The position numbers and the translations under genes are program-made. This document shows positions 10,781 to 63,986 of a DNA stretch of 64,000 bases, in pieces. The stretch lies in contig OY783192.1 in NCBI GenBank assembly GCA_963678675.1, positions 33,263,250-33,327,249 of the forward strand, given 5' to 3'. Source of the DNA: Xiphydria camelus (Eukaryota; Arthropoda; Insecta; Hymenoptera; Xiphydriidae). Within the stretch, counting starts at the first letter, position 1. Each line of letters starts with the position of its first letter. The notes beneath the pieces are model-generated. The model had not been told where the DNA came from. It worked only from the letters and a program-made list of their open reading frames with translations, and searched no databases.

Positions 10781-11165
10781 ATTATTTCTCTCAGTGTACT
10801 TAGCTGCTTCAACGAAATATTTGTTCAAGTAACTATATATTTAATTGGACGCCCGTAACGTTACAATCTGGTTGAATAAAACGATTTTTTTTCTCAGTAG
10901 ATATATAATAACACAATTCTTCCGCCGTTCGTCTGACAAAAACTTTTGTTGAAACAAACCAGTACATATTGATAATAACAAGGCAGACAAGTTTAATTGA
11001 TTTCCATTTACCAATGAAAAATGAATTTTTTTAAATAACACGATAAAAATTTTGTTTTTTTTTCAACTATATACAATCCAACAAAACACACAATAGTTAG
11101 TTTGACGAAATTTAATCTTCAACCCAAACAATTTGGTCGGAAGGACTAAATTTTTTTCTCAGCGT
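10781..11165. mobile_element. Fragments of R4-type MITEs
   Basis: 10800-10900 matches the inner and right half of R4 (caacgaaatatttgttcaag, tggacgcccgtaacgtta, ending ttttttttctcagta). A second end, ctaaatttttttctcagcgtg, lies at 11146-11166. These are partial copies; their full boundaries are unclear. Confidence 0.5.
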
Positions 11166-11166
11166 G

Positions 11167-12833
11167 TTTCTCGTCATCATTAGCGCCCGAATTACACACG
11201 CGTAACGCTTTAACGCTTGCACGAAACCCGGTGAGCTTTCTCACCTCGCGCGAAAGTCTCGCAACGCGGCCGCAGCTACTTTTCCGAGCGATTAACCCGA
11301 AATTGGGTGCAAACGAGCCGGCAGCGCGTGCTCCGGATAATTTGACGGATCGTGCGGCTAAGTGCAGGAAACCGAAACTTCGCCCCGCGTCGAGATTGGT
11401 ATGCAAATTTTCGGACAAACTGTGTGTGTTTAAACGTCTCAATTACTCTGAACGAGGAGACCGCAAAAACCACGGTATTCTCCCCTTTCCGCTCCCTTCC
11501 CGTTGCCAATCCCCCGCGCAACCCCTTTCCGTTTCCTCGCACCCCGGCGCCTCTATAAATTTACGCGCGCTGCATCGAATTGCGAGAAAGTCGTTACGCG
11601 GAGATTTAGTACAGCGAAAAATATGTAGACCGCAAGCACACATGCGCGTTATACATTCGTATTTTTATTAGTTACAGTCCAAGCGTTTATCCGAGTATTC
11701 TCAAAAGAGACGTACGCTGACCGGTGTAACGCGAGAAATGAATAAGCGTGCAGTGTATCCTGATAATTATGACACTTCCCTAATCTCTCTCTCTCTCTCT
11801 CTCTCTCTCCCCCCCTCTCTCTCTCTCTCTCACGTTCTACATACGCGTACACTTAATTACACCGGTGTACGGTACTCGGGAGCAATTACGCGCGAGTGCC
11901 CCGAGGCTGGGACGTTTCCTGCCTTGGAATTGTGGCTGCGACAAAAGGGCCCGCCAAGTCGTAGGGCCCTTTATCCTTCTCCTTCGGAGAAGCCGAAACA
12001 TCATTCCGGTTTCCGCTCGCGTATGCGCAAGCTTCGAAGGTTTTTTAGCCTCTTGAGTACGTATATGGTACCCGTTGGTATAATTATCACGAAAGCAGGA
12101 TAGTCCTTGGTGATAATTGAACGATTACAAGAATCCGAGGACTTGACTTGAATTTCATCTAGATCGAAGATCTATGGCCTGCCTTCCCTGAGGTAAAATA
12201 AGAGACGCGGAGAAAAATGACTTTGAAAAAGAGAGCACTGGATGTTTCAAATTTTGACGCTGAGTTTCCGAATTTTGGCATTGTCTGCCATTTGTTTGAT
12301 ATTGCAGTGACAACTTGAAATTATGGGAAATACTGCCATACAGAGCAGCATGCTGCAGCACTTCATTACCCATCCAATGGCAATTTAATTATTAATATAA
12401 TATCGCATATTTTTAAACTAATTTGATATTTCACGAGGTTTGGCTATATTGAAAATAGCTATGAGTCGTGAAAATATTGTCATACGCAGTAGCATTTCAT
12501 TCTCCTTTTTTTTGTATATAACAGCACAGCATTTTTTGCTATGGATACCTCATGATCGAACCTCATGAAGTGCCTACTAAATTGCTTAAAAATATATGCC
12601 ATATTTATTAATGTTTGCTGTGTGAGGAAAAGGAAATATTATTCTACATGTCAATATTATCTAACATTCCGAGTATATTCACTGCAGTGTCATACAAAAA
12701 GTATATAGTCCCAAAATTCAGACACCCCCAGTATCAAAATTCAGGGACTCGATGCTAAAATGCGGGCATCCAGTGCACTTTCTCCCAAACCCACTTTTCT
12801 CCGTAAGTAATTCTACAAAGCTTGACCAAAGCT
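11167..12833. other. Host noncoding DNA with a (CT)n microsatellite
   Basis: Contains a CT-rich microsatellite at about 11784-11831 interrupted by a short C run. The remaining sequence has no recognisable gene. Bases 12700-12833 immediately flank the large transposon and end in ...gcta, of which the last TA is the target dinucleotide. Confidence 0.5.
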
Positions 12834-12834
12834 A

Positions 12835-13090
12835 CACTGCAAATGGAAGTGTGTTATGAAGTGTGTTAATTTACACACAACACACGTTTTTCGTGTGTTA
12901 TTGAAATCCTATGTGTAAAATAACACGTCTAAAGTGTGTTTTCAGATGAATTAACACATTTTGTCTGTGTTATTTGCAGAACACACGGTTTTTAGTGCGT
13001 TAAAGCTTAAAACGTTTAACTTAACACACATGAAACGTGTTAAAATAAAGCACGTAAGCATGATTTACACACTTCAACCGATTAACGCAC
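12835..13090. repeat. Outer terminal and subterminal repeats, left copy
   Basis: After the 19-bp end CACTGCAAATGGAAGTGTG come many short copies, in both orientations, of gtgtgtta/taacacac and aacacgtt/aacgtgtt type words, for example at 12853-12900, 12920-12935, 12950-12975 and 13020-13045. Clustered subterminal words of this kind bind transposon-encoded proteins in plant CACTA elements; binding here is inferred. Confidence 0.75.
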
Positions 13091-13317
13091 TTGTAACTTA
13101 AAACATGAGCCAAGAATAACATCCCCGTCTTGAAATCATTATTTTGTTTGGGCTATAGTTTCAGGAATTAAGTCGTACGTATGGAATATTTACAAACTTT
13201 TTTGACAAGTGTTGTTTTATTTTTTTGCATGTACACATTATGTATTACAGGGTTAAATGGTAATGAGAAATGCGTATATAACTGAAATTTTTTTAAATGC
13301 GAAAATTATAATGTTAG

Positions 13318-16248
13318 CTATCCAATAAATTCGACGTGGTCACAGTTGATTAAGGGAACATATTTCCCACGCATGACTGTAAAGGAAGACAATGGATGTG
13401 GAAATACTAAATTCTCGGTAGCAATTACGTTTTGCTGGGTATCTACAGGTCGTTCAATCAAATATGCATTCAATTCTTCACAATAATTTACAGTTTCAAG
13501 ATGTGAAATTATAAACAATTTCCAATTTTGATAAACAAATAAGTCGTTTATTTCTGCAAATAAAGGAAGCGAATTATCGTTACTGAATTGATATAAAATG
13601 ATACTGTTTTTCTCGTACATTGTTCCATATATAACTATTTTGCTGGTTCGCATAATTTGGCATGTATCTCGTTCAGCCTCATCAACAAATCGATTAAACA
13701 ATCTTGCGTAAGGAAGATTTTTCAGCAGTAGTATAGGACCTGTTTTTACCTGATCACCTTTGTATAGAAATTTTTTTGATGGCATTCCTGGATATGAAGC
13801 AAGTCTAGAAGATAGTCGTGCTTGATGTCGGTAGCTCAACGTGAAAGGAATGTTTTTGAAATTTCGAACGATCGGCACTAATGATTTGAAGTATGCATGA
13901 GCAGCTTCAAATCTAAAGCACCACTGTTGTCTTGCAGGTCCAAACAATTTGATGTATCGTGGAATATGAATCATAAAATGAAATTTTGGTGTAATCCAGT
14001 CAGAATGCAATCTACTAAATCGCAATAGAAACACTTGGATCATTCGACTTAATAAATCTATCGACTCTGTTCGGACTTCATATGCAAGACAAACGTTCAT
14101 AATTTGCAGAAGCAGAATGTGACAATTAATTACATCCTTGATATCTTCCTTTTCACACTCTAATATCCATTCGCAAATTAAAAATGGCAATATATGTGCA
14201 AGCACGAATATTTGCGATGCTTTTTGGCGTAAGGTATTGTTCTCCGTAAGTTGATCACGTTCGATGAAAGCAGGTTTATCTCTTTTAAAGTGACCATAAT
14301 GGAAGCAAGTTAATTTTTCATTGAATTCATCAACTGTGAAAAGGTTATTCTGAATAATGCAGTCTCGCAATGTTACTCGGCATATAATTTCCGCTACACC
14401 TTCAATTAAAATGTGCATACAATCCTGTGGAAGGCACATTGTAATATCAAAATTAGGTATACCCATCAACGGACTTTTTCTGTTGATTCCATACTGCTTT
14501 TGCCAGAAGTTTTTAGCCGCTTTTGTAATATTCGGTTCACAAATTGCATCAATATGTTCCTGGTGGTCGTTAGTATTACGTAAAATAAAATTATTTTCAT
14601 GAAAATTATTTTTCCACTCTTCTCTGGTCGTCATGCATGAACGACAGAGTCGATAGGCAGAAACAGACTCTTTATATCCTCCAATCATCGCTGAAGCAGG
14701 GGTATCTCCAGCGCAAAACAAAACTGATCCTTTGAAATTTTTTATCTGACCATTGACAGTTATATTGACTCCCTCAATTTGTAATTTGATGATATCGGAA
14801 ATAAACGGTTCCAAAATTCTTTCTAGAGCGTTGAATTCTTTTAAAAATGAGGTCTTGACGACAGCCAATAGCTGAATACTATCCTTTGACGATCGTACTT
14901 CAGGATTGATATTTGCAAGGGACCAATAAAACATCGATAGTTTGTGAGTTTTTGAAGCGGCTCCTAAGGGATTCGTGACTCCAAGGTCATCATAATATAG
15001 TATAATAGCTAAGGCGTTCTCGTTATTTCGGAAAAAGTCATTTTCTCGATAATAACAGCCGTCCAGAACTGTTCGAAGAATACATTTGTCATTGTTTGAC
15101 GGGTTTTCAATGTGAAATCGGACTTCGTCGTTATTTAGAAGATTTTTTAAATTGTCAAGGAAAGGTATAATATACGCATGACGATTGACTTCTACAAGAT
15201 CTGGTATTGTGCCAAATTGCCTCTTCTTCTGTTTCCATTGAAAAGTAGCACCAATAACATGTGCTTGTGGCATTACCATGCCAAACTTCTCAATAAGTAC
15301 CTTATCGAGAGCATCTTTTGAGCATACCGAAGAATATATCGACGATGGTGGATATTCATTTCCTAAGATATTTTGATAATCTTCTAAACGAAGTAACTTT
15401 GTTTCGGGGTCACATCTCCTCTTTAATTCATCCTTTAAAGAGAAAATCATTTGTTTTCATATTTAATCTATTATTATGAGCATAATCAAACAAATGTTTT
15501 ACAAAAGTCTTACCAACAAAACTGACAAATAAGCATCTAATAAATTCGTGACGCCATCGATAAGATGATCGACAGCAGTTTGTGAAACTTTACAATTTTC
15601 GCGAATATTGACGAGGAATTTGGCCGCATGCCATTCGAGAAATTCAGATGGTAACACGACAGGCTGTGCTCTGTTTTCTGAAATTTAAATGCACTCACAT
15701 AGTATAATCTGCACACACTATTGTAGGACACAGAAAAAAAATATTTATATCGAAGAAATGTTAATTTTAAATTATAGCAAAGAAATATTTCTTCGATTTA
15801 AAGAACATTTCTTTAATGAAAATAATATATTCCTTAAATTAAAGGATTATTCTGTAAATGAAAGATATATCTTTAAATCAAAGAAATATTCATTTGCAAC
15901 TATCCAAATTTTAAACAGTGTACATCGCATACCATCGTCTTCACGTCCCACATTTTGATTATTTTCTACCTCACAGGGTATATCGGGTAAATTAACTTCT
16001 ACTTCCACTAATTCTGCTTCCTGATTTATTTCGTCTCGAAATTCCGGAATATCTGGATGATTTCTACATAAATGCTGACAGAAAGATTTCCATTTTCCAA
16101 ACGTGGCAGCACATCCGTTATGTACACATTTCACTCTGAACTGTGGATCGTATCGATGATGTCGAATGACATGTTGCATCAAGAGATCACTCGTTGCACA
16201 AGAAAAGAAGCACATTGTGCACGGAAAATTTTGTTTCACTCCGATCAT
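13318..16248 (-). CDS. CACTA/CMC-like transposase with N-terminal C2H2 fingers, left copy
   Basis: Three exons on the minus strand, read 16248-15933, 15677-15514 and 15432-13318, with GT-AG introns that keep frame and give about 864 aa. Residues 10-30 form a C2H2 finger (C10, C13, H26, H30) and 41-64 a second (C41, C46, H59, H64), likely DNA-binding. The core carries an acidic YYDD motif (about 306-309) followed by NPLG (314-317), a CAGD motif (400-403) with a CRSC cysteine pair soon after, PQDCMHILIEG (495-505) and RFEAAH (667-672). I recall these motifs in animal CMC-type transposases and read the two D motifs and the RFE glutamate as the probable DDE triad (inference). It would cut and join the element ends in the nucleus. 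Start: first ATG before the fingers, facing the companion gene. An AATAAA signal follows the stop (13216-13221, minus strand). No frameshift seen. Confidence 0.85.
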
Positions 16249-16779
16249 ATTAATATTGTGCCATTAAAATCCAAATTTTCAATATTATTTCCGAGCTGGC
16301 TGTACGTGTTTAGCATAAAACTGTTTAACATCGGCTGCGTTCCTATCGCCACCGGCCAAGTTCATTGGGCCGTCATATTCAACTGTAAGATAGAGCAGTG
16401 ACTCCAGTAGGAGAAAGTTTCTCTACCGATAGCGTCAGGCAAGGACTTTTTTTATCCATTGTTTCCAGCCGTACTCTGGACAGTTGGTTGCCAGATGCCT
16501 TGCCTGCACAGCTTCGTTCGTAGCACGGGTCATCGCAGCCCCTTACGCGGCTTTCCGACGCCTCGGAAGATGCGCAACCCTACCAGCCTTTGTCTCCTTC
16601 GGTTTTTTTCCTCAGCAATAGCCAGTAGAAAAATGCACATTCCCACTCCTCTCTCGACTTCACCCCCAACACAATTTTGTACATAACAGTCAGTCACCAT
16701 CGACACTGCAATAAGGCAAGTCGCGCCGTCGCTGTCGCGCAAAACGCTCGTGACGCCGAGACAATCCACGTGTAAGAAA
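16249..16779. promoter_or_regulatory. Divergent promoter region between the two transposon genes, left copy
   Basis: 531 bp separates the start codons of the minus-strand transposase and plus-strand companion gene, so both promoters must lie here or in unseen 5' exons. It has higher GC content than the rest of the element. I did not find a convincing TATA box, and 5'UTR boundaries cannot be set from sequence. Confidence 0.5.
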
Positions 16780-19700
16780 ATGGAAAAAAAGGCGTATTGT
16801 ATAATCGGAGAACGTTGCAAATGTATTAGATACGTGTCGGAAAAAAATAAATGTGACGCTGAAGTTGTACGTGGCAAGTTATTCGAAGTGTGCAAGACGG
16901 ACGCTATATTGAAAGCGATGGTGCATCACAAATCAATCGTTTTGCAAACAAAGGATCCTGACAGAGGGGATAAATTTTGCGATATTGAAGAAGACTACGA
17001 GATTCCTGACAAAAGTGATGTTAATGTGGTTCTCATTCAAACCGTCGAAGAAATTGTGCCCGGCTCGAAGAATCGTAACGAAGATTTCGATCAAGATGAT
17101 TTGCAAAACAATTGGAACTCAATGGAAGTAAATGTTCTGTACACTGAACCTCTGCAAAGTACTTCAAATGCGACAAGTGAATTGGAAGCCTCACATTCAG
17201 TTGCGAACGTATCGGAAAAGAAGTCTGAAGATCATGCGTTGAAAAATATTTTCAAAAAAGAGGTATGTTTAATCATTTGTCATCGATGTTATGTATTCTT
17301 GTTCTTTATTATTTAATTAATCCTTAGTTGCCTTCAGTATCTTACCTTTTATTTTGTTTCATAAAGCCAACCCCCCTCCCCCCAAGATAAGGTTAGAGAC
17401 TATCAAAGATGTTGGGGTGTTCTTTATTAATTGATGAGCCAGATGATTTCCGCATTTTAAAAAATTCAAATTATCAAATTTTTCTTCTGTTTATAAGAAA
17501 ATTATATCCTTATAATCCCAAAAAATTAATTAGGATATAAAATATTGCCATAGTTTTGAAAATTGCTAAAATCATGAAGATTATATTAATTTCTACTATT
17601 TTATCGTCTCAAAGATTTTTAAAATAATTTTTCGGAACGATATCGTTGCATATTGCAGATATCAATTGAAAGCGAAGAATGTAAGGCAGGTCCAAGTGAG
17701 ATAACAACTATCTCGCCAACTATTCCGTATGAAGGAGAAAAATCGCAGTCAGTGATTGCCGGGCCCGGCTCCATATTATTTCCAGCACCATTGCCACCGT
17801 TAACTTTTGATTTGGAGAAAAAATTGCAAGAAGTTGGTGTTCTGGAAGCTCAAAAGTCTTTCATGTATTTTTGGGGATCTTATTTGTGGCAAGCGACTAA
17901 AGGGGTGCCTACTAAACAAGATTACCACAATTTTGCAATGAGCATTGTTGCAGCTTATCCTTTGCTTCGCGGAGGTCACATGGAATGTGTTAGTAAAATG
18001 CATATTATTTTTGCCTTTTATTTATTGCTCATTTTAGGATCCTTTGGACACTTATAATGTTGGCCAATAATTTTTCAAATTTATATATTTCTTACACTGC
18101 AGTAAACCAAACTTAATAGTTTTTGGTGATAATTTTGTACAGTATAATTGGAGAAATGTGTATATTAAATTTAATTCCCCATTTGTTTCATTCGTCCTGA
18201 CGGTATAAAACTCATTTTAAACGAATATTGTAGTCACTATAATTAGTATATCTTAAGGCGAGAAATCCCTTTAAAAGCGTGAAAAATAGGTATTTTTCGG
18301 GAATTTTCCAAAAGCCACGCTTTATATAGAATATCTATTTCATTATTAATAAACCACGTATTCAACATTCCGTGCATCAACATACCCCTCTGAAACATGG
18401 AGATGCGACGCACCGAGGCTTCGCAGTATTGTAATAACATATAGGTACTTGTATTTCTGTTTCTTCAATCCTTAAGGGAATTGTGAAAACACAACTAAGT
18501 ACTTGGGTAAGAAATCATCGATCCAACATGAAGAAAAAGACTTTAAAAAGAGACTACCATGGAAAACTCAAAACGCCAGCTGAGCAAGCCATGTTAATTG
18601 ACTTAAAAACGTAATCCTTACTTTTTTTAATATGGTCAATCATTAGTTATTATTTTAATTGTATTATTAGTTATTATATTATTTAAACTTATTTCGTTTT
18701 TTCTGGTAGTGGTCAACCGACAGAAACAGATATAAAAAACGCTCTCAAAGAATTAGAGAAAAAACATAAAGATAATAATACACCGCATGTAAAACGATTG
18801 TTAAAGATTACACTTTCACACCGAAGAACCTGGATTGAAAAGGAAGCCACTGGAATAGTGGATATAATTCAAAAGTATCCGCAATTGAAGGAATATGAAA
18901 CAGTATATTACTTATGAACTATAATATCTAACATACATTGAGAAAAAAAGTTTTTCAGTCAACTCAATTTTAAGGTTACGGGCGTTCAACCTTATTTATG
19001 GTCATTTGAACAAATATTCAGTTTAGGTAGCTGAATATTTAGTTAGTTCAAATAAATTTTAGTTACTTTAACAAAATATTTTTTCAGATAATTATACATT
19101 AAGTTGAGCGCCCATACCCTAAAAATTGAGTTGAATCAACTCATTTTTTCTTAGTGTATTATGCGATTTTTAGGTCGGCTTAAATTACAAGAAATAATAG
19201 TTTTAAATTATTCGCAGATTTTTTTCGACTTCCTAAATTTGAGAAAAGTAGACGAAGGTGTGATTTTCCAAAACATCGGTCTGATGATGCAAAATTTAAA
19301 GAAATACTTTTCCTCCGAAGCTAATTCAGAGAGGGCTGAAATTTTGTTAATGACAAAACTCGAAAATGAATTAGCAAACAAGAAGCTGAAGAAAAAATTT
19401 TCGCCTCTAATCACCGTGAGCGAGGTATGACAATAATCAAGCAATTTTTATTTTATTCAAATTTTATATAAAGGCATATTTCTGCACACAGGCGATGACA
19501 TCCTCGGAGAATCATCTCGTTGGATGTAAGGACAACTCGCCACGCGCTATTATTTTTACAGCAGAGGAAAGGATAGCAACAGTGTACATCGTAGCGGATG
19601 AACACGTAAAAATCAAAATAGATAATCCTACGGCTACGAAAACTATCACTTGTCTTCTTGCTGCATATTACGTCTGGGATATAAGGTACCCGACCGCCTA

Positions 19701-19812
19701 CTGTAATGTCCTGGAATACATCGATGGTGAAGTTCTGGGAACCACTACGGTAAACAAGAATTCGACAGTGCAAAAATTTCTCCGAAAACGAAATAGTATC
19801 TTGCGTAATTAA
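16780..19812 (+). CDS. Transposon companion protein, left copy
   Basis: Six plus-strand exons, 16780-17262, 17659-17988, 18477-18610, 18710-18902, 19218-19424 and 19492-19812, joined by GT-AG introns in consistent phase to give about 555 aa. Residues 1-161 are acidic and Ser-rich with several Cys near the start; an in-frame ATG ten codons upstream (16750) is an alternative start. Exon 2 holds a Pro-rich linker and then an aromatic segment with a KYP-like motif (about 250-264, ending AAYPLL). Exons 3-4 are basic with a second such motif (IIQKYPQL). The last exon has AAYYVWDIRYP (about 506-516). From memory this arrangement recalls animal proteins loosely annotated 'SAM domain-containing protein 3-like', though I see no SAM domain. 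Function unknown. By position it could be an accessory to transposition, like the second protein of plant CACTA elements (inference). A MITE sits in intron 4. Confidence 0.75.
18936..19156. mobile_element. R4 MITE nested in intron 4 of the companion gene, left copy
   Basis: 221 bp with inverted ends (cattgagaaaaaaagttttt and ttttttcttagtg) and internal mirrored blocks around cgttcaacct and agttgagcgcccata. Flanked by TA (18934-18935 and 19157-19158), a clean 2-bp target duplication. It lies wholly within an intron, so it does not break the gene. Related copies: 43828-44053 and fragments at 10800-10900 and 35771-35875. Confidence 0.85.
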
Positions 19813-19820
19813 ACCAAATA

Positions 19821-19948
19821 GGGCCAGTTGTTTCAACTTCTAGGTAAAATTTATCCTCTCGGTAAACCGCTTATTGGCTACTCTGATTGACTGATAAGCG
19901 GTTTACCGAGAGGATAAATTTTACCTAGAAGTTGGAACAACTGGGGCC
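19821..19948. mobile_element. Hairpin MITE downstream of companion gene, left copy
   Basis: Two arms of about 50 bp, nearly perfect inverted repeats, beginning ggccagttgtttcaacttct and ending aacaactggggcc, with a short loop near ggctactctgattgactg. It starts 9 bp after the companion stop codon (19812), so the companion 3'UTR would contain this hairpin. Confidence 0.8.
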
Positions 19949-20299
19949 ATACATAGATGTTTCTACATATATATGCGGCAGTCACAATTTTTTAGTTTAC
20001 AATCTCAAATATTTAGTTTACATGCATGTAATATATATGTAAAATATATTTTACAATAACAATAATTTTTTTATTACTTTATAAAACGCCTTCGCACTGT
20101 ATATAGATAAAAGATGACCAGTAAAGGAAAACAATTCAGCTGGAAAAAAATGCAAAGTAGTTTTTATGGAGCATCAGAAGAGCTTTTTTTGCAGAAACAG
20201 CTCTTTTGAAGCTCCCTATAAGAAAAAACTTTTGGAATTTGATAATAGCTGCGCTATTTTCTTTTATAATCACTTTTTATCTATAATTTACTCGTTTTA

Positions 20300-20499
20300 A
20301 ATGTGTTAAAATAACACGTTTACAATGTGTTAAAATAACACGTTTACAATGTGTTATACCGGATTAAAACGTTTTAAACGGTTCACTTTAACACGTTTAA
20401 AACGTATTATACATTAAAACGCCAGGAAACGTTTAAAACTTAACTACAAGGATTTACACACGTAAAGTGTGTAAATATAACACACTTCCATTTGCAGTG
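20300..20499. repeat. Inner terminal and subterminal repeats, left copy
   Basis: Contains two tandem copies of aatgtgttaaaataacacgt at about 20308-20345, then related words with cgttttaaacggtt and taacacgtttaaaacg, and ends in cacacttccatttgcagtg. Mirror image of 20502-20701. Confidence 0.75.
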
Positions 20500-20501
20500 T
20501 A

Positions 20502-20701
20502 CACTGCAAATGGAAGTGTGTTATATTTACACACTTTACGTGTGTAAATCCTTGTAGTTAAGTTTTAAACGTTTCCTGGCGTTTTAATGTATAATACGTT
20601 TTAAACGTGTTAAAGTGAACCGTTTAAAACGTTTTAATCCGGTATAACACATTGTAAACGTGTTATTTTAACACATTGTAAACGTGTTATTTTAACACAT
20701 T
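20502..20701. repeat. Inner terminal and subterminal repeats, right copy
   Basis: Exact mirror of 20300-20499: CACTGCAAATGGAAGTGTG followed by acacac, ttaacacattgtaaacgtg and related words. Together with the left copy this forms a perfect inverted repeat about the central TA. Confidence 0.75.
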
Positions 20702-21052
20702 TAAAACGAGTAAATTATAGATAAAAAGTGATTATAAAAGAAAATAGCGCAGCTATTATCAAATTCCAAAAGTTTTTTCTTATAGGGAGCTTCAAAAGAG
20801 CTGTTTCTGCAAAAAAAGCTCTTCTGATGCTCCATAAAAACTACTTTGCATTTCTTTCCAGCTGAATTGTTTTCCTTTACTGGTCATCTTTTATCTATAT
20901 ACAGTGCGAAGGCGTTTTATAAAGTAATAAAAAAATTATTGTTATTGTAAAATATATTTTACATATATATTACATGCATGTAAACTAAATATTTGAGATT
21001 GTAAACTAAAAAATTGTGACTGCCGCATATATATGTAGAAACATCTATGTAT

Positions 21053-21180
21053 GGCCCCAGTTGTTCCAACTTCTAGGTAAAATTTATCCTCTCGGTAAAC
21101 CGCTTATCAGTCAATCAGAGTAGCCAATAAGCGGTTTACCGAGAGGATAAATTTTACCTAGAAGTTGAAACAACTGGCCC
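21053..21180. mobile_element. Hairpin MITE downstream of companion gene, right copy
   Basis: Mirror of 19821-19948, again directly downstream of the companion stop codon. Confidence 0.8.
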
Positions 21181-21188
21181 TATTTGGT

Positions 21189-24100
21189 TTAATTACGCAA
21201 GATACTATTTCGTTTTCGGAGAAATTTTTGCACTGTCGAATTCTTGTTTACCGTAGTGGTTCCCAGAACTTCACCATCGATGTATTCCAGGACATTACAG
21301 TAGGCGGTCGGGTACCTTATATCCCAGACGTAATATGCAGCAAGAAGACAAGTGATAGTTTTCGTAGCCGTAGGATTATCTATTTTGATTTTTACGTGTT
21401 CATCCGCTACGATGTACACTGTTGCTATCCTTTCCTCTGCTGTAAAAATAATAGCGCGTGGCGAGTTGTCCTTACATCCAACGAGATGATTCTCCGAGGA
21501 TGTCATCGCCTGTGTGCAGAAATATGCCTTTATATAAAATTTGAATAAAATAAAAATTGCTTGATTATTGTCATACCTCGCTCACGGTGATTAGAGGCGA
21601 AAATTTTTTCTTCAGCTTCTTGTTTGCTAATTCATTTTCGAGTTTTGTCATTAACAAAATTTCAGCCCTCTCTGAATTAGCTTCGGAGGAAAAGTATTTC
21701 TTTAAATTTTGCATCATCAGACCGATGTTTTGGAAAATCACACCTTCGTCTACTTTTCTCAAATTTAGGAAGTCGAAAAAAATCTGCGAATAATTTAAAA
21801 CTATTATTTCTTGTAATTTAAGCCGACCTAAAAATCGCATAATACACTAAGAAAAAATGAGTTGATTCAACTCAATTTTTAGGGTATGGGCGCTCAACTT
21901 AATGTATAATTATCTGAAAAAATATTTTGTTAAAGTAACTAAAATTTATTTGAACTAACTAAATATTCAGCTACCTAAACTGAATATTTGTTCAAATGAC
22001 CATAAATAAGGTTGAACGCCCGTAACCTTAAAATTGAGTTGACTGAAAAACTTTTTTTCTCAATGTATGTTAGATATTATAGTTCATAAGTAATATACTG
22101 TTTCATATTCCTTCAATTGCGGATACTTTTGAATTATATCCACTATTCCAGTGGCTTCCTTTTCAATCCAGGTTCTTCGGTGTGAAAGTGTAATCTTTAA
22201 CAATCGTTTTACATGCGGTGTATTATTATCTTTATGTTTTTTCTCTAATTCTTTGAGAGCGTTTTTTATATCTGTTTCTGTCGGTTGACCACTACCAGAA
22301 AAAACGAAATAAGTTTAAATAATATAATAACTAATAATACAATTAAAATAATAACTAATGATTGACCATATTAAAAAAAGTAAGGATTACGTTTTTAAGT
22401 CAATTAACATGGCTTGCTCAGCTGGCGTTTTGAGTTTTCCATGGTAGTCTCTTTTTAAAGTCTTTTTCTTCATGTTGGATCGATGATTTCTTACCCAAGT
22501 ACTTAGTTGTGTTTTCACAATTCCCTTAAGGATTGAAGAAACAGAAATACAAGTACCTATATGTTATTACAATACTGCGAAGCCTCGGTGCGTCGCATCT
22601 CCATGTTTCAGAGGGGTATGTTGATGCACGGAATGTTGAATACGTGGTTTATTAATAATGAAATAGATATTCTATATAAAGCGTGGCTTTTGGAAAATTC
22701 CCGAAAAATACCTATTTTTCACGCTTTTAAAGGGATTTCTCGCCTTAAGATATACTAATTATAGTGACTACAATATTCGTTTAAAATGAGTTTTATACCG
22801 TCAGGACGAATGAAACAAATGGGGAATTAAATTTAATATACACATTTCTCCAATTATACTGTACAAAATTATCACCAAAAACTATTAAGTTTGGTTTACT
22901 GCAGTGTAAGAAATATATAAATTTGAAAAATTATTGGCCAACATTATAAGTGTCCAAAGGATCCTAAAATGAGCAATAAATAAAAGGCAAAAATAATATG
23001 CATTTTACTAACACATTCCATGTGACCTCCGCGAAGCAAAGGATAAGCTGCAACAATGCTCATTGCAAAATTGTGGTAATCTTGTTTAGTAGGCACCCCT
23101 TTAGTCGCTTGCCACAAATAAGATCCCCAAAAATACATGAAAGACTTTTGAGCTTCCAGAACACCAACTTCTTGCAATTTTTTCTCCAAATCAAAAGTTA
23201 ACGGTGGCAATGGTGCTGGAAATAATATGGAGCCGGGCCCGGCAATCACTGACTGCGATTTTTCTCCTTCATACGGAATAGTTGGCGAGATAGTTGTTAT
23301 CTCACTTGGACCTGCCTTACATTCTTCGCTTTCAATTGATATCTGCAATATGCAACGATATCGTTCCGAAAAATTATTTTAAAAATCTTTGAGACGATAA
23401 AATAGTAGAAATTAATATAATCTTCATGATTTTAGCAATTTTCAAAACTATGGCAATATTTTATATCCTAATTAATTTTTTGGGATTATAAGAATATAAT
23501 TTTCTTATAAACAGAAGAAAAATTTGATAATTTGAATTTTTTAAAATGCGGAAATCATCTGGCTCATCAATTAATAAAGAACACCCCAACATCTTTGATA
23601 GTCTCTAACCTTATCTTGGGGGGAGGGGGGTTGGCTTTATGAAACAAAATAAAAGGTAAGATACTGAAGGCAACTAAGGATTAATTAAATAATAAAGAAC
23701 AAGAATACATAACATCGATGACAAATGATTAAACATACCTCTTTTTTGAAAATATTTTTCAACGCATGATCTTCAGACTTCTTTTCCGATACGTTCGCAA
23801 CTGAATGTGAGGCTTCCAATTCACTTGTCGCATTTGAAGTACTTTGCAGAGGTTCAGTGTACAGAACATTTACTTCCATTGAGTTCCAATTGTTTTGCAA
23901 ATCATCTTGATCGAAATCTTCGTTACGATTCTTCGAGCCGGGCACAATTTCTTCGACGGTTTGAATGAGAACCACATTAACATCACTTTTGTCAGGAATC
24001 TCGTAGTCTTCTTCAATATCGCAAAATTTATCCCCTCTGTCAGGATCCTTTGTTTGCAAAACGATTGATTTGTGATGCACCATCGCTTTCAATATAGCGT

Positions 24101-24221
24101 CCGTCTTGCACACTTCGAATAACTTGCCACGTACAACTTCAGCGTCACATTTATTTTTTTCCGACACGTATCTAATACATTTGCAACGTTCTCCGATTAT
24201 ACAATACGCCTTTTTTTCCAT
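21189..24221 (-). CDS. Transposon companion protein, right copy
   Basis: Mirror of 16780-19812 on the minus strand: exons 24221-23739, 23342-23013, 22524-22391, 22291-22099, 21783-21577 and 21509-21189, about 555 aa, identical to the left copy in the stretches compared. The arm mismatch at 23493 falls in intron 1, so it does not change the protein. The two companion genes converge on the palindrome centre, while the two transposase genes point outward. Read-through from either companion gene across the centre would transcribe the other copy in antisense. Confidence 0.75.
21845..22065. mobile_element. R4 MITE nested in intron 4 of the companion gene, right copy
   Basis: Mirror of 18936-19156 at the same internal position, so this MITE entered the element before the copies separated and has been carried along. 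Confidence 0.85.
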
Positions 24222-24752
24222 TTTCTTACACGTGGATTGTCTCGGCGTCACGAGCGTTTTGCGCGACAGCGACGGCGCGACTTGCCTTATTGCAGTGTCG
24301 ATGGTGACTGACTGTTATGTACAAAATTGTGTTGGGGGTGAAGTCGAGAGAGGAGTGGGAATGTGCATTTTTCTACTGGCTATTGCTGAGGAAAAAAACC
24401 GAAGGAGACAAAGGCTGGTAGGGTTGCGCATCTTCCGAGGCGTCGGAAAGCCGCGTAAGGGGCTGCGATGACCCGTGCTACGAACGAAGCTGTGCAGGCA
24501 AGGCATCTGGCAACCAACTGTCCAGAGTACGGCTGGAAACAATGGATAAAAAAAGTCCTTGCCTGACGCTATCGGTAGAGAAACTTTCTCCTACTGGAGT
24601 CACTGCTCTATCTTACAGTTGAATATGACGGCCCAATGAACTTGGCCGGTGGCGATAGGAACGCAGCCGATGTTAAACAGTTTTATGCTAAACACGTACA
24701 GCCAGCTCGGAAATAATATTGAAAATTTGGATTTTAATGGCACAATATTAAT
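24222..24752. promoter_or_regulatory. Divergent promoter region between the two transposon genes, right copy
   Basis: Mirror image of 16249-16779, between the start codons of the companion gene (minus) and the transposase (plus). Confidence 0.5.
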
Positions 24753-27683
24753 ATGATCGGAGTGAAACAAAATTTTCCGTGCACAATGTGCTTCTTTTCT
24801 TGTGCAACGAGTGATCTCTTGATGCAACATGTCATTCGACATCATCGATACGATCCACAGTTCAGAGTGAAATGTGTACATAACGGATGTGCTGCCACGT
24901 TTGGAAAATGGAAATCTTTCTGTCAGCATTTATGTAGAAATCATCCAGATATTCCGGAATTTCGAGACGAAATAAATCAGGAAGCAGAATTAGTGGAAGT
25001 AGAAGTTAATTTACCCGATATACCCTGTGAGGTAGAAAATAATCAAAATGTGGGACGTGAAGACGATGGTATGCGATGTACACTGTTTAAAATTTGGATA
25101 GTTGCAAATGAATATTTCTTTGATTTAAAGATATATCTTTCATTTACAGAATAATCCTTTAATTTAAGGAATATATTATTTTCATTAAAGAAATGTTCTT
25201 TAAATCGAAGAAATATTTCTTTGCTATAATTTAAAATTAACATTTCTTCGATATAAATATTTTTTTTCTGTGTCCTACAATAGTGTGTGCAGATTATACT
25301 ATGTGAGTGCATTTAAATTTCAGAAAACAGAGCACAGCCTGTCGTGTTACCATCTGAATTTCTCGAATGGCATGCGGCCAAATTCCTCGTCAATATTCGC
25401 GAAAATTGTAAAGTTTCACAAACTGCTGTCGATCATCTTATCGATGGCGTCACGAATTTATTAGATGCTTATTTGTCAGTTTTGTTGGTAAGACTTTTGT
25501 AAAACATTTGTTTGATTATGCTCATAATAATAGATTAAATATGAAAACAAATGATTTTCTCTTTAAAGGATGAATTAAAGAGGAGATGTGACCCCGAAAC
25601 AAAGTTACTTCGTTTAGAAGATTATCAAAATATCTTAGGAAATGAATATCCACCATCGTCGATATATTCTTCGGTATGCTCAAAAGATGCTCTCGATAAG
25701 GTACTTATTGAGAAGTTTGGCATGGTAATGCCACAAGCACATGTTATTGGTGCTACTTTTCAATGGAAACAGAAGAAGAGGCAATTTGGCACAATACCAG
25801 ATCTTGTAGAAGTCAATCGTCATGCGTATATTATACCTTTCCTTGACAATTTAAAAAATCTTCTAAATAACGACGAAGTCCGATTTCACATTGAAAACCC
25901 GTCAAACAATGACAAATGTATTCTTCGAACAGTTCTGGACGGCTGTTATTATCGAGAAAATGACTTTTTCCGAAATAACGAGAACGCCTTAGCTATTATA
26001 CTATATTATGATGACCTTGGAGTCACGAATCCCTTAGGAGCCGCTTCAAAAACTCACAAACTATCGATGTTTTATTGGTCCCTTGCAAATATCAATCCTG
26101 AAGTACGATCGTCAAAGGATAGTATTCAGCTATTGGCCGTCGTCAAGACCTCATTTTTAAAAGAATTCAACGCTCTAGAAAGAATTTTGGAACCGTTTAT
26201 TTCCGATATCATCAAATTACAAATTGAGGGAGTCAATATAACTGTCAATGGTCAGATAAAAAATTTCAAAGGATCAGTTTTGTTTTGCGCTGGAGATACC
26301 CCTGCTTCAGCGATGATTGGAGGATATAAAGAGTCTGTTTCTGCCTATCGACTCTGTCGTTCATGCATGACGACCAGAGAAGAGTGGAAAAATAATTTTC
26401 ATGAAAATAATTTTATTTTACGTAATACTAACGACCACCAGGAACATATTGATGCAATTTGTGAACCGAATATTACAAAAGCGGCTAAAAACTTCTGGCA
26501 AAAGCAGTATGGAATCAACAGAAAAAGTCCGTTGATGGGTATACCTAATTTTGATATTACAATGTGCCTTCCACAGGATTGTATGCACATTTTAATTGAA
26601 GGTGTAGCGGAAATTATATGCCGAGTAACATTGCGAGACTGCATTATTCAGAATAACCTTTTCACAGTTGATGAATTCAATGAAAAATTAACTTGCTTCC
26701 ATTATGGTCACTTTAAAAGAGATAAACCTGCTTTCATCGAACGTGATCAACTTACGGAGAACAATACCTTACGCCAAAAAGCATCGCAAATATTCGTGCT
26801 TGCACATATATTGCCATTTTTAATTTGCGAATGGATATTAGAGTGTGAAAAGGAAGATATCAAGGATGTAATTAATTGTCACATTCTGCTTCTGCAAATT
26901 ATGAACGTTTGTCTTGCATATGAAGTCCGAACAGAGTCGATAGATTTATTAAGTCGAATGATCCAAGTGTTTCTATTGCGATTTAGTAGATTGCATTCTG
27001 ACTGGATTACACCAAAATTTCATTTTATGATTCATATTCCACGATACATCAAATTGTTTGGACCTGCAAGACAACAGTGGTGCTTTAGATTTGAAGCTGC
27101 TCATGCATACTTCAAATCATTAGTGCCGATCGTTCGAAATTTCAAAAACATTCCTTTCACGTTGAGCTACCGACATCAAGCACGACTATCTTCTAGACTT
27201 GCTTCATATCCAGGAATGCCATCAAAAAAATTTCTATACAAAGGTGATCAGGTAAAAACAGGTCCTATACTACTGCTGAAAAATCTTCCTTACGCAAGAT
27301 TGTTTAATCGATTTGTTGATGAGGCTGAACGAGATACATGCCAAATTATGCGAACCAGCAAAATAGTTATATATGGAACAATGTACGAGAAAAACAGTAT
27401 CATTTTATATCAATTCAGTAACGATAATTCGCTTCCTTTATTTGCAGAAATAAACGACTTATTTGTTTATCAAAATTGGAAATTGTTTATAATTTCACAT
27501 CTTGAAACTGTAAATTATTGTGAAGAATTGAATGCATATTTGATTGAACGACCTGTAGATACCCAGCAAAACGTAATTGCTACCGAGAATTTAGTATTTC
27601 CACATCCATTGTCTTCCTTTACAGTCATGCGTGGGAAATATGTTCCCTTAATCAACTGTGACCACGTCGAATTTATTGGATAG
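24753..27683 (+). CDS. CACTA/CMC-like transposase with N-terminal C2H2 fingers, right copy
   Basis: Plus-strand copy of the gene at 13318-16248, with exons 24753-25068, 25324-25487 and 25569-27683. Intron 1 starts gtatgcg after a phase-1 break and ends ttcag. Intron 2 starts gtaaga and ends ttaaag. The spliced product is about 864 aa and identical to the left copy in every stretch compared, with the same two C2H2 fingers and YYDD/NPLG, CAGD, DCMH and RFEAAH motifs. The third exon alone encodes 704 residues plus stop, and AATAAA follows at 27780-27785. Two intact, identical transposase genes 8.5 kb apart imply very recent duplication. The exon model is from reading splice consensus only; no transcript evidence is available. 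Confidence 0.85.
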
Positions 27684-27910
27684 CTAACATTATAATTTTC
27701 GCATTTAAAAAAATTTCAGTTATATACGCATTTCTCATTACCATTTAACCCTGTAATACATAATGTGTACATGCAAAAAAATAAAACAACACTTGTCAAA
27801 AAAGTTTGTAAATATTCCATACGTACGACTTAATTCCTGAAACTATAGCCCAAACAAAATAATGATTTCAAGACGGGGATGTTATTCTTGGCTCATGTTT
27901 TAAGTTACAA

Positions 27911-28166
27911 GTGCGTTAATCGGTTGAAGTGTGTAAATCATGCTTACGTGCTTTATTTTAACACGTTTCATGTGTGTTAAGTTAAACGTTTTAAGCTTTA
28001 ACGCACTAAAAACCGTGTGTTCTGCAAATAACACAGACAAAATGTGTTAATTCATCTGAAAACACACTTTAGACGTGTTATTTTACACATAGGATTTCAA
28101 TAACACACGAAAAACGTGTGTTGTGTGTAAATTAACACACTTCATAACACACTTCCATTTGCAGTG
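27911..28166. repeat. Outer terminal and subterminal repeats, right copy
   Basis: Mirror of 12835-13090, with taacacac, aacacgtt and aacgtgtt words ending in cacacttccatttgcagtg. Confidence 0.75.
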
Positions 28167-28959
28167 TAGTTCAAGCCCATATCTCCACCAGGAATATACG
28201 AAGCTAAGCCGCGACTAATTTTACTCCCCCCCCCCCCCCCTCCCTCCGAACAGTCCTTAAGGGATTAGACGCACGTACAACAAATCGAACTGACATCATG
28301 GATTAACATATTATCTAAACCCGAGAGAGAAAATAGAAAACCTCCCTCTCCAAGGCGCGAACCAGACGCAGCCCCCGCGGAGCGCCCCGCGCGGATGCAG
28401 GACGAACACACATCCCCGCAGCCTCGTTACGCTAAACACACACCGCCGCGCGAGGAGAGAGAACAACGGGATAATAATTATCGTGCCACGGTTTTTGCCC
28501 GCCTCCCGTTCGACACCGTGAAATTAGTGACAGCCGTGAAGGCCCTCGGAATTCCGCCCGTCGCTTTTTCCAACCGCGCCCGTTAATTCGAGGCCGTCGT
28601 GTTTACTCGCGGGGCGCCCGGCGCGCGATGCGGAAAGCGCGCGCGCGGCGGGTCGTCTTCCGCGCGAGGCGCGCAATCGCGGAACGAAAGGCGCGGCGAT
28701 GGATGCGGACGCGGGAAGGGAAGAGAAAGGAGAGGCTCGCGCAGGGGGCGAGGGCCGATTACCGCGGCGACCACCTGAGGATTTCTCGGGATAAAGTTTT
28801 TTTCCATTCCGCTCGCGACATTCCGAAGAAAGACGGAGCTCAAATTGTAAGACACTGTAGCGGTTGCCCGCGACTTCGTTTGTGTGGAATTTTAATTATA
28901 TTTTTTTGTTAAATTACGTGAACTTATGATGACGACACACACCCTGTATGCTCCTCATG
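28167..28959. other. Host noncoding DNA with a 15-C run
   Basis: Starts with the TA flanking the transposon. A C homopolymer occupies 28226-28240. 28340-28830 is CpG-rich with open frames of Arg-rich composition (28395-28586, 28628-28912) and no recognisable domain. Confidence 0.4.
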
Positions 28960-38947: not shown

Positions 38948-40120
38948 CCCGACCAGAAATTTGGCTTGACATGCCGGTTGTCACATCAGGCCCTGATCAG
39001 GCATACGCCCGGCATGCCGGATCCGGTTTGCCTTAGCTGCGCCGGACCCGGCCCTGATCAGGCATACGCCCGGCATGCCGGATCCGGTTTGCCTTAGCTA
39101 CGCCGGACCCGGCCCTGATCAGGCATACGCCCGGCATGCCGGATCCGGTTTGCCTTAGCTCCGCCAGACCCGGCCCTGATCAGGCATACGCCCGGCATGC
39201 CGGATCCGGTTTGCCTTAGCTCCGCCGGACCCGGCCCTGATCAGGCATACGCCCGGCATGCCGGATCCGGTTTGCCTTAGCTGCGCCGGACCCGGCCCTG
39301 ATCAGGCATACGCCCGGCATGCCGGATCCGGTTTGCCTTAGCTGCGCCGGACCCGGCCCTGATCAGGCATACGCCCGGCATGCCGGATCCGGTTTGCCTT
39401 AGCTGCGCCGGACCCGGCCCTGATCAGGCATACGCCCGGCATGCCGGATCCGGTTTGCCTTAGCTGCGCCGGACCCGGCCCTGATCAGGCATACGCCCGG
39501 CATGCCGGGTCCGGCTTGCCGTAGCTGCCTGACGCCAGATTGCGCCGACCCTCTCGGCTCTCGGTAGTAAAACGGCGGTACAGTACTATATACCTAAGAG
39601 GACCACAGAGCGTCTAAGGCAGGAGTCGGCCTAGCCTTACTGACGAGTTCACAGGCCGACTCCGGGTCGAAATGACGAACTCACTCGTCTGCCACAGCGA
39701 TTTTTGAAAGCGATTTTGTTTATATATAAAAATAAACAATTATCGTATGGGAAATTTAGACCCGACCCGACCCGACCAGAAATGTCGATACTTGTCACGT
39801 CAGGACCGAATAAGGCAACTTTATCCGGCCCTGGTCAAGCATGTAACGCGTTGTCACATCAGGGCCGAATCCGGTAACCGGATCCGGGCCCGACCAGAAA
39901 TTTCGATACTTGTCACGTCAGGACCGGGTAAGGCAGCCTGACCCGGCCCTGATCAAGCATGTAACGCGTTGTCACATCAGGGCCGGCAACCGGCCCTGAT
40001 GTGACAATGCGTTACATACCTGACCAGGGCCGGGTAAGGTTGCCTGATAAGGGCCTGACTTCCAAGATCCGGCTGCCTGACCCGGCCCTGATGTGACAAG
40101 TATCGAAATTTCTGGTCGGG
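38948..40120. mobile_element. Minisatellite-bearing inverted-repeat element, copy 1
   Basis: 1173 bp between CCCGACCAGAAATTT (38948) and its complement AAATTTCTGGTCGGG (ending 40120), with TA on each side. The left part is a 61-bp tandem repeat (about 38990-39520, some 8-9 units, each with cggcatgccgg and ccctgatcagg). A single-copy middle (39525-39750) follows, then about two units of a 129-bp repeat that restates the terminal sequence. No transposase frame; the frame 39747-39941 lies in repeats. Foldback-like nonautonomous DNA element (inference). Confidence 0.8.
38990..39520 (+). repeat. 61-bp minisatellite array, copy 1
   Basis: Successive gccctgatcaggcatacgcc motifs recur every 61 bp with few point differences (for example agctgcgcc, agctacgcc and agctccgcc variants). 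Each unit holds palindromes tgatca, gcatgc and ggatcc. Confidence 0.9.
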
Positions 40121-43735: not shown

Positions 43736-44053
43736 CTGAGAGAAATAATTGCTGGTAGCAAAGAAATGTTTTATTTAATCGAAAACGTGATGTAAATGCG
43801 GGCTTTTTGTAGAAGAAAATATTTGATCACTGAGAAAAAATCAGTAGATTTAACTAAATCTTGAGGTTACGAACGGTCGACTAAATATACTTATAGTTAT
43901 TTGAACAAATATTTAGTTGAAGCAGCTAAGTATCAAGTTACTTCAATTAAATTTTAGTTACTTTAACTACACACTTGTTGAAATAATTACATATTAAGCT
44001 AGTCGCGCGTAACTTTAAAATTTAGTTAAATCAAACGATTTTTTTTATCAGTG
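43736..44053. mobile_element. R3 fragment followed by an R4 MITE
   Basis: 43736-43827 matches the left end of R3 (actgagagaaataattgctg). 43828-44053 is an R4 copy: cactgagaaaaaatcagtag to the inverted end cgattttttttatcagtg, with the inner block gaacaaatatttagttga. No clear target duplication for this R4 copy. Confidence 0.65.
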
Positions 44054-55868: not shown

Positions 55869-55910
55869 CCCGACCAGAAATTTGGCTTGACATGCCGGTT
55901 GTCACATCAG

Positions 55911-56345
55911 GCCCTGATCAGGCATACGCCCGGCATGCCGGATCCGGTTTGCCTTAGCTACGCCGGACCCGGCCCTGATCAGGCATACGCCCGGCATGCC
56001 GGATCCGGTTTGCCTTAGCTGCGCCGGACCCGGCCCTGATCAGGCATACGCCCGGCATGCCGGATCCGGTTTGCCTTAGCTGCGCCGGACCCGGCCCTGA
56101 TCAGGCATACGCCCGGCATGCCGGATCCGGTTTGCCTTAGCTGCGCCGGACCCGGCCCTGATCAGGCATACGCCCGGCATGCCGGATCCGGTTTGCCTTA
56201 GCTGCGCCGGACCCGGCCCTGATCAGGCATACGCCCGGCATGCCGGATCCGGTTTGCCTTAGCTGCGCCGGACCCGGCCCTGATCAGGCATACGCACGGC
56301 ATGCCGGATCCGGTTTGCCGTGGCTACGCCGTACCCGGCCCTGAT
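55911..56345 (+). repeat. 61-bp minisatellite array, copy 2
   Basis: Same 61-bp unit as 38990-39520, about 7 copies. The last unit is diverged (gcatacgcacggcatgc, gccgtggctacgcc). Confidence 0.9.
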
Positions 56346-56639
56346 CAGGCTAATCCACGGTAAACCTAGTCCAGTCAGTCAATCCACGCTGTAGCGGCCT
56401 GACGCCAGATGGCGCCGACCCTCTCGGCTCTCGGTAGTAAAACGGCGGTACAGTACTATATACCTAAAAGGACCACAGAGCGTCTAAGGCAGGAGTCGGC
56501 CTAGCCTTACTGACGAGTTCACAGGCCGACTCCGGGTCGAAATGACGAACTCACTCGTCTGCCACAGCGATTTTTGAAAGCGATTTTGTTTATATATAAA
56601 AATAAACAATTATCGTATGGGAAATTTAGACCCGACCCG

Positions 56640-63410: not shown

Positions 63411-63986
63411 AATATACCGTCTTCCCGTACTGACAGTATACATGCATTTTACCTCCAATATGCCGGAATTAAAAATCTCTAGAACTCTGCGGTACAATGC
63501 CACGGTATGAATATCAGGTTCTACCGACATGACATGCTTCGACAAGGTCTGTATCAACTTTAGCGGTATATTAAGGGCACTGCACTAATCCTGTGGCACA
63601 TTTTTCTATCTGGGAAAGCATATTATTATGGTAGTACAGCTGTACAGCGTTCCGATAATATATAATTGGAACTTTTAATAATACGAAAGGGAAAATATAT
63701 CGATAAAGAAAAGATAATAAAATAATTACTTCATTATTGTAATCCAATTCTATCGTATCTCCTACTTTTCTACCACGGCTTTCCCAGATAGAAAAATGTG
63801 CCACAGGATTAGTGCAGTGCCCCCAATATAATGCTAAAGTTGATACAGACCTTGTCGAAGCATGTCATGTCGGTAGAATTTGATATTCCTACCGTGGCAT
63901 TGTACCGCAGAGTTCTAGAGATTTTTAATTCCGGCATATTAAAGGTAAAATGCATGTATACTGTCAGTATGGGAAGACGGTATATT
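63411..63986. repeat. Long inverted repeat with rearranged spacer
   Basis: Left arm 63411-63620 (aatataccgtcttcccgtac and on) and right arm 63779-63986 (gctttcccagatagaaaaat to ggaagacggtatatt) are near-complementary over about 208 bp. The spacer 63648-63778 is itself an inverted copy of 63298-63408, just upstream of the left arm, giving the order A-B-A'-B'. Confidence 0.8.

Follow-up and report, generated by a model that had tools for sequence, protein, structure and literature searches.

Results

Two transposon copies form a 15.3-kb palindrome

The window, by which we mean the whole stretch of 64,000 nucleotides analyzed here (C6:33263250-33327249 of an assembly of 357,211,407 bases in 38 contigs), contains a 15.3-kb palindrome at positions 12832-28169. 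Its arms, 12832-20500 and 20501-28169, lie 0 nt apart, and when compared outward from the center (20500|20501) they differ at 3 of 7669 positions with no indels, after which the symmetry is lost directly. The three differences (20147/20854, 17508/23493, and 14863/26138) are all transitions. Because the left and right 2-kb flanks share no convincing similarity (the best of three matches spans 24 bp, with an E value of 0.041), the symmetry does not reach beyond the element ends plus CTA/TAG. A 15-kb palindrome cannot be a product of chance, and the identical structure is present in the genome assembly on contig C6 (39.5 Mb). The inverted repeat, the base comparison, and the set of genomic copies delimit a left transposon copy (L018, 12835..20499, minus strand) and a right one (L019, 20502..28166, plus strand), each of 7665 bp. 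TA occurs as a target-site duplication at the outer left border (12833..12834) and at the outer right border (28167..28168), and a further TA at the center (20500..20501) is common to both copies. The preliminary description of this DNA had reported a near-perfect palindrome of two 7665-bp copies with TA at its center and at both outer borders, and our comparison bears out both statements. The companion genes of the two copies face the center of the palindrome, and the transposase genes face outward.

Each arm is an intact two-gene element

Each arm carries an intact DNA transposon that belongs to the CACTA/CMC group and has two genes. Its terminal inverted repeats (TIRs) are perfect over 23 bp and start with CACTG (CACTGCAAATGG...), giving the CAC...GTG ends of CACTA/EnSpm elements (CMC supergroup). 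In the right copy, the TIR at the companion-gene end lies at 20502..20524 on the plus strand (mirrored at 20477-20499) and the TIR at the transposase end at 28144..28166 on the minus strand (mirrored at 12835-12857). Arrays of subterminal repeats are a defining trait of the same group, and the element has one at each end, with 9 copies of the GTGTWA/TWACAC motif at the inner end (20502..20699) and 11 at the outer end (27931..28166) of the right copy, both mirrored in the left copy. The two terminal 350-bp stretches hold 20 of the 26 motifs, a density of 28.6 per kb versus 0.86 per kb internally. The G+C content of the element is 34.7%, versus 47.2% and 44.6% in the rest of the window to the left and right, respectively. 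Two segments within the element look like miniature inverted-repeat elements (MITEs). One, at 21057-21177 (mirrored at 19824-19944) just past the companion stop codon, carries a near-perfect 51-bp hairpin and resembles Rfam MIR7993 below the Rfam cutoff; the other, at 21852-22040, has stretches of about 75% similarity at 43852-44044 and 10802-10896.

The transposase gene of the right copy (24753..27683, plus strand) is modeled with exons at 24753-25068, 25324-25487, and 25569-27683, which together would encode 864 amino acids, the first intron being one of several splice options tried. In the left copy the gene occupies 13318..16248 on the minus strand, and the protein encoded by its long open reading frame (ORF; 13318-15450) is the same as that of the right copy. 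The long exon, with a 710-amino-acid ORF, is uninterrupted and keeps residues D154, D249, C269-x2-C272, H491-x3-H495, and E515. Motifs of the C(2)C and H(3-4)H type are described as lying between the second D and the E of the DDE triad in CACTA/EnSpm transposases (PMC12730594), and this hallmark is present here. By its structure model the protein is RAG1-like, the predicted fold of the long ORF resembling RAG1. The Pfam family Transposase_21 (PF02992) matches the transposase at an E value of 0.00073 and 19.2 bits, below the cutoff of 28.6, and DUF4218 also matches beneath its curated cutoff; 21 of 35 aligned sequences match Transposase_21 at E values up to 1. The 864-amino-acid model extends the protein by a zinc-finger-like region at the N terminus, which those relatives that reach that far share. 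At the C terminus, structure comparison suggests a BAH-like fold for residues 565-698 (window positions 27243-27644); since Pfam finds no family in this C-terminal piece, the BAH-like reading rests on predicted fold. PDB sequence searches returned nothing or only FokI matches at E values of 0.08 to 0.09, which we took as noise.

Among 7990 candidates scored, 61 relatives of the 710-amino-acid ORF were found at an E value of ≤0.001. The close named ones are nearly all hymenopteran, from ants and wasps of genera including Chelonus, Prorops, Venturia, Vollenhovia, Leptopilina, and Microplitis; an exception is the lacewing Chrysoperla. Remoter relatives include fish and sea cucumber proteins. Many among the nearest relatives are metagenome proteins without a name. 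Viral contigs, contigs of prokaryote genomes, phages, and plasmids yielded no relatives, as expected for an insect element.

The companion gene runs opposite to the transposase gene. It is modeled with six exons in the right copy (24221-23739, 23342-23013, 22524-22391, 22291-22099, 21783-21577, and 21509-21189; 21189..24221, minus strand), predicting a protein of 555 amino acids, and by symmetry its mirror lies at 16780..19812 on the plus strand of the left copy. No Pfam family was found for the protein, and its five relatives at an E value of ≤0.001 come from Solenopsis (two isoforms), Cotesia, Temnothorax, and the flea Ctenocephalides. The structure model of the Solenopsis relative is poor (pLDDT of 48.8).

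Elsewhere in the window, nine other ORFs of at least 150 amino acids matched no Pfam family, and an Rfam search of the window gave nothing at gathering score. The observed/expected CpG ratio of the window is about 1.5; high CpG is common in Hymenoptera. Together with the transposase relatives, this ratio points to an insect host, probably a hymenopteran, although transposons can move between species and relatives by themselves do not establish the host. GC-rich tandem arrays with a 61-bp unit followed by 59/118-bp arrays occur at 38989-39528 and 55910-56350 and are about 95 to 98% identical, and a 576-bp segment at 63411-63986 forms an imperfect inverted repeat onto itself at 81% identity.

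The element belongs to a young family in the same genome

Searched against the genome, one 600-base end of the element gave at least 22 matches of about 100% identity over the full or nearly full query, together with older partial ones, and a scan with a 22-base end allowing up to 1 mismatch gave 83 matches genome-wide, versus 0 for the reversed control. From the positions of the end matches we chose a full-length set of 22 copies, a set that excludes copies with more diverged or missing ends. The genome thus holds at least 22 full copies, of which 21 are exactly 7665 bp long; the remaining one, L026, has an extra 669-bp insert. This insert (contig C17, between element positions 2248 and 2249) has inverted ends and is apparently another mobile element. 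Some pairs of end matches only about 230 to 270 bp apart, such as those at C10:34063639-34063890, C22:7862506-7862755, and C1:36422941-36423210, look like short nonautonomous relatives.

All 22 copies are bordered by identical 2-bp flanks, in keeping with the 2- to 3-bp target-site duplication of CACTA/EnSpm elements: TA in 10 copies, CA in 4, AG, TG, and TT in 2 each, and CG and CT in 1 each. TA is the commonest duplication, against a share of 6.6% of dinucleotide positions in the window without the palindrome. The preliminary description had assumed insertion into TA; the duplication itself stands in 22/22 copies, whereas a strict TA target does not (10/22). These flanks also bear on whether the palindrome is an artifact of assembly, produced by a fold-back read or by a wrong join of near-identical repeats. 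A family of 22 near-identical 7.7-kb copies is hard to assemble, and yet the symmetry stops at the element ends rather than at random, the two flanks differ, all three junctions carry a 2-bp flank of the transposition type, and the other 20 copies have matching flanks as well, so that we regard an artifact as extremely improbable.

Apart from the L026 insert, the 22 copies vary at only four element positions (353, 1837, 2992, and 5637). Positions 353, 1837, and 2992 and the insert fall outside the modeled exons. Position 5637, with 14 copies carrying T and 8 carrying C, lies in the long transposase ORF, where the change is synonymous. With almost no differences among the copies, and with variants that are nonexonic or synonymous, the family is, to judge from these sequences, very young, and its copies carry matching gene models. 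The mean pairwise difference of 0.84 per 7665 bp corresponds to about 16,000 generations at an assumed mutation rate of 3.5e-9 per site.

Copies are clustered in close inverted pairs

A genome check for other inverted pairs, which the preliminary description had proposed, found three more. Including the palindrome, four pairs lie less than 1 kb apart and account for 8 of the 22 copies, and all four are inverted: L018/L019 with the 2-bp gap of TA on C6, L023/L024 on contig C10 (gap of 261 bp; spacer of 55% G+C), L037/L038 on contig C29 (385 bp; 65% G+C), and L035/L036 on contig C28 (806 bp; 33% G+C). The facing ends are companion ends in two pairs and transposase ends in two. In each of the three nonpalindromic pairs there are two separate target duplications, one per copy, which means that near-adjacent insertion recurs in this CACTG-ended family. 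Random placement of 22 points on a line of genome length gave a mean of 0.001 such pairs, and four were reached in 0 of 20,000 trials. The inverted orientation of all four, with a chance of 1 in 16, is not significant on its own, and recombination may remove close repeats that are direct. One looser pair is direct: L021 and L022 lie 9.9 kb apart, are identical at the four variable sites, and both have AG duplications. Compared by eye with 54 window blocks of 900 bp, the insertion flanks, which for paired copies include parts of the neighbor, do not stand out in composition.

The members of close pairs differ at 5637 in two of the four pairs, L037/L038 being one of them, and are identical at all four variable sites only in L035/L036. 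In the palindrome, position 5637 is T in the left arm (window position 14863) and C in the right arm (26138), and each arm has a private base, G at 2992 in the left and C at 353 in the right. L020, a further copy with C at 5637 like the right arm, is found 133 kb away from the palindrome.

Discussion

How did two copies come to share one TA? Most probably the palindrome arose in two cut-and-paste steps, in which one copy inserted first and another, probably descended from a different copy, then entered the TA that the first had duplicated. The first copy would have inserted at the TA in ...AAAGC-TA-GTTCAAG..., duplicating it; a second copy, which probably came from another place and belonged to the other sublineage, would then have inserted in inverted orientation into one of the flanking TAs, and its own duplication of TA would yield TA-element-TA-element'-TA. 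Which copy inserted first, where the second came from, that the transposase acted, and why insertion falls near residents are parts of this scheme that we infer rather than observe. Of the origins offered in the preliminary description, insertion into the TA beside a resident copy is the best explanation, given the 2-bp duplication of every copy and the differing arm haplotypes.

The same description had offered a joined or aberrant double-end product as a second origin. In such a scheme, hairpin closure or end joining of one excised copy, followed by replication, would generate a 15.3-kb palindrome that inserts via its outer ends. A palindrome centered on 2 bp is one form that such a product could take, and a hairpin model has been published for inverted repeats newly formed next to a Ds element (PMC1978519). 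A dimer made from one copy, whether through a hairpin, a fold-back, or copying from a sister, should, however, start with matching arms, and the arms here differ in haplotype, which leads us to prefer two insertions from different copies; the dimer would need a family-wide change at 5637 to have begun in one arm. This haplotype argument turns on a single family-shared site and is to be read with that in mind. A change at 5637 after self-copying, with the arm then seeding its type into the family, would still fit, and gene conversion, recurrent mutation, or mispolishing of near-identical repeats could mimic the difference. Arm seeding explains at most one of the two 5637-discordant pairs without conversion or recurrence. 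The TIR-TA-TIR junction, moreover, occurs once in the genome: a search that allowed up to 3 mismatches and covered other 2-base spacers found none elsewhere. We consider the aberrant dimer highly improbable. The uniqueness of the junction also means that there is no sign that the 15.3-kb unit moves, and the suggestion that the outer ends act as those of a 15.33-kb mobile unit finds no support, the 20 other copies being single with their own duplications. A composite transposon, or macrotransposon, is likewise unsupported, as the dimer was found at one site only.

A local hop, in which the neighbor jumped after replication into the TA beside its sister and 5637 changed later by a seeding mutation, conversion, or recurrence, would account for the strong spatial clustering (four pairs within 1 kb versus 0.001 expected), and it has a precedent in the P element (PMC7776569). 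The identity of L035 and L036 at the four variable sites agrees with it, and the A at 1837 that L024 shares with L032 (contig C24) is compatible with a descent of L024 from its neighbor L023 and a later seeding of L032 by L024. In contrast, three of the four close pairs are nonidentical at these sites, seeding rescues only one discordant pair, and discordance at 5637 in two of four pairs is what copies paired at random gave most often (38% of 20,000 trials). We therefore hold a local hop to be improbable as the origin of the palindrome, and two insertions from different copies remain our preferred explanation.

The clustering as a whole may stem from hot-spot targets, from attraction to residents, or from local hopping, and of these, hot spots and attraction fit the haplotypes of the pairs somewhat better. 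A tentative and rather unlikely extension is that the transposon steers to within about 1 kb of residents in inverted orientation, a resident capturing incoming copies of any sublineage. As part of that speculation, the cue for capture might lie in the repeat-rich ends with transposase on them or in a chromatin state that the BAH-like domain recognizes, and the shared-TA palindrome would be the case of zero distance.

The palindrome is best explained by ordinary transposition, but following it up revealed a young CMC family whose copies, at least 22 in number, are nearly identical and very strongly clustered in pairs. The family allows direct questions to be asked: is a RAG-like transposase drawn to its own residents, and why are the close pairs inverted? 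RAG2 has a chromatin-reading domain, and a BAH-like C-terminal domain on a RAG1-like transposase, as suggested by the predicted fold, would parallel it. A near-perfect 15-kb palindrome is also likely to act as a fragile site and to give rise to double-stranded RNA.

Compared with known systems, we place the element within CACTA/CMC as a new member and class the palindrome as an adjacent insertion of an ordinary kind. The element is like the insect CACTA/EnSpm elements in CMC (CMCT) in its CAC...GTG ends, 2-bp duplication, subterminal repeats, C(2)C and H(3-4)H motifs, and possibly tnp2-like transposase. It differs from them in its sub-cutoff Transposase_21 and DUF4218 matches and may do so in its N-terminal zinc-finger-like region and predicted C-terminal BAH-like fold. 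Wasps and their viruses are reported to carry CMC MITEs that end in 5'-CAC/GTG-3' and duplicate 2 bp (PMC6004678), and a duplication of 2 bp is also on record for animal relatives of CACTA (PMC1636069, PMC4298943). Among these, SmTRC1/TRC is an animal CACTA-related element that has both a Transposase_21 domain and direct repeats of 2 bp (PMC1636069); its ends begin with CCC, whereas those of the present element begin with CACTG. The EnSpm-like fungal elements CNEST, which is about 7.2 kb long with ends that begin with CACGG (PMC12810828), and ESTA (PMC12730594) are described as duplicating TA, and they have a CMC-type transposase and TA duplications in common with our element, which also duplicates CA, AG, TG, TT, CG, and CT. 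Membership in the TA-duplicating ESTA/CNEST group was rejected because only 10 of the 22 duplications are TA, and Tc1/mariner was rejected because 12 of 22 are not TA and the transposase is RAG1-like. The clustering of copies is the part that ordinary transposition leaves unexplained. In a literature search for adjacent transposons or shared duplications we found no direct case, including in the portions of PMC1978519, PMC7776569, and PMC9319602 available to us, and one may exist in print. The nearest parallel in the comparison is the local hopping of the P element, which is reported to prefer sites about 50 to 150 kb from existing copies (PMC7776569). Both elements favor sites near existing copies, but here the gaps are 2 to 806 bp, all four pairs are inverted, and three of the pairs consist of nonidentical copies.
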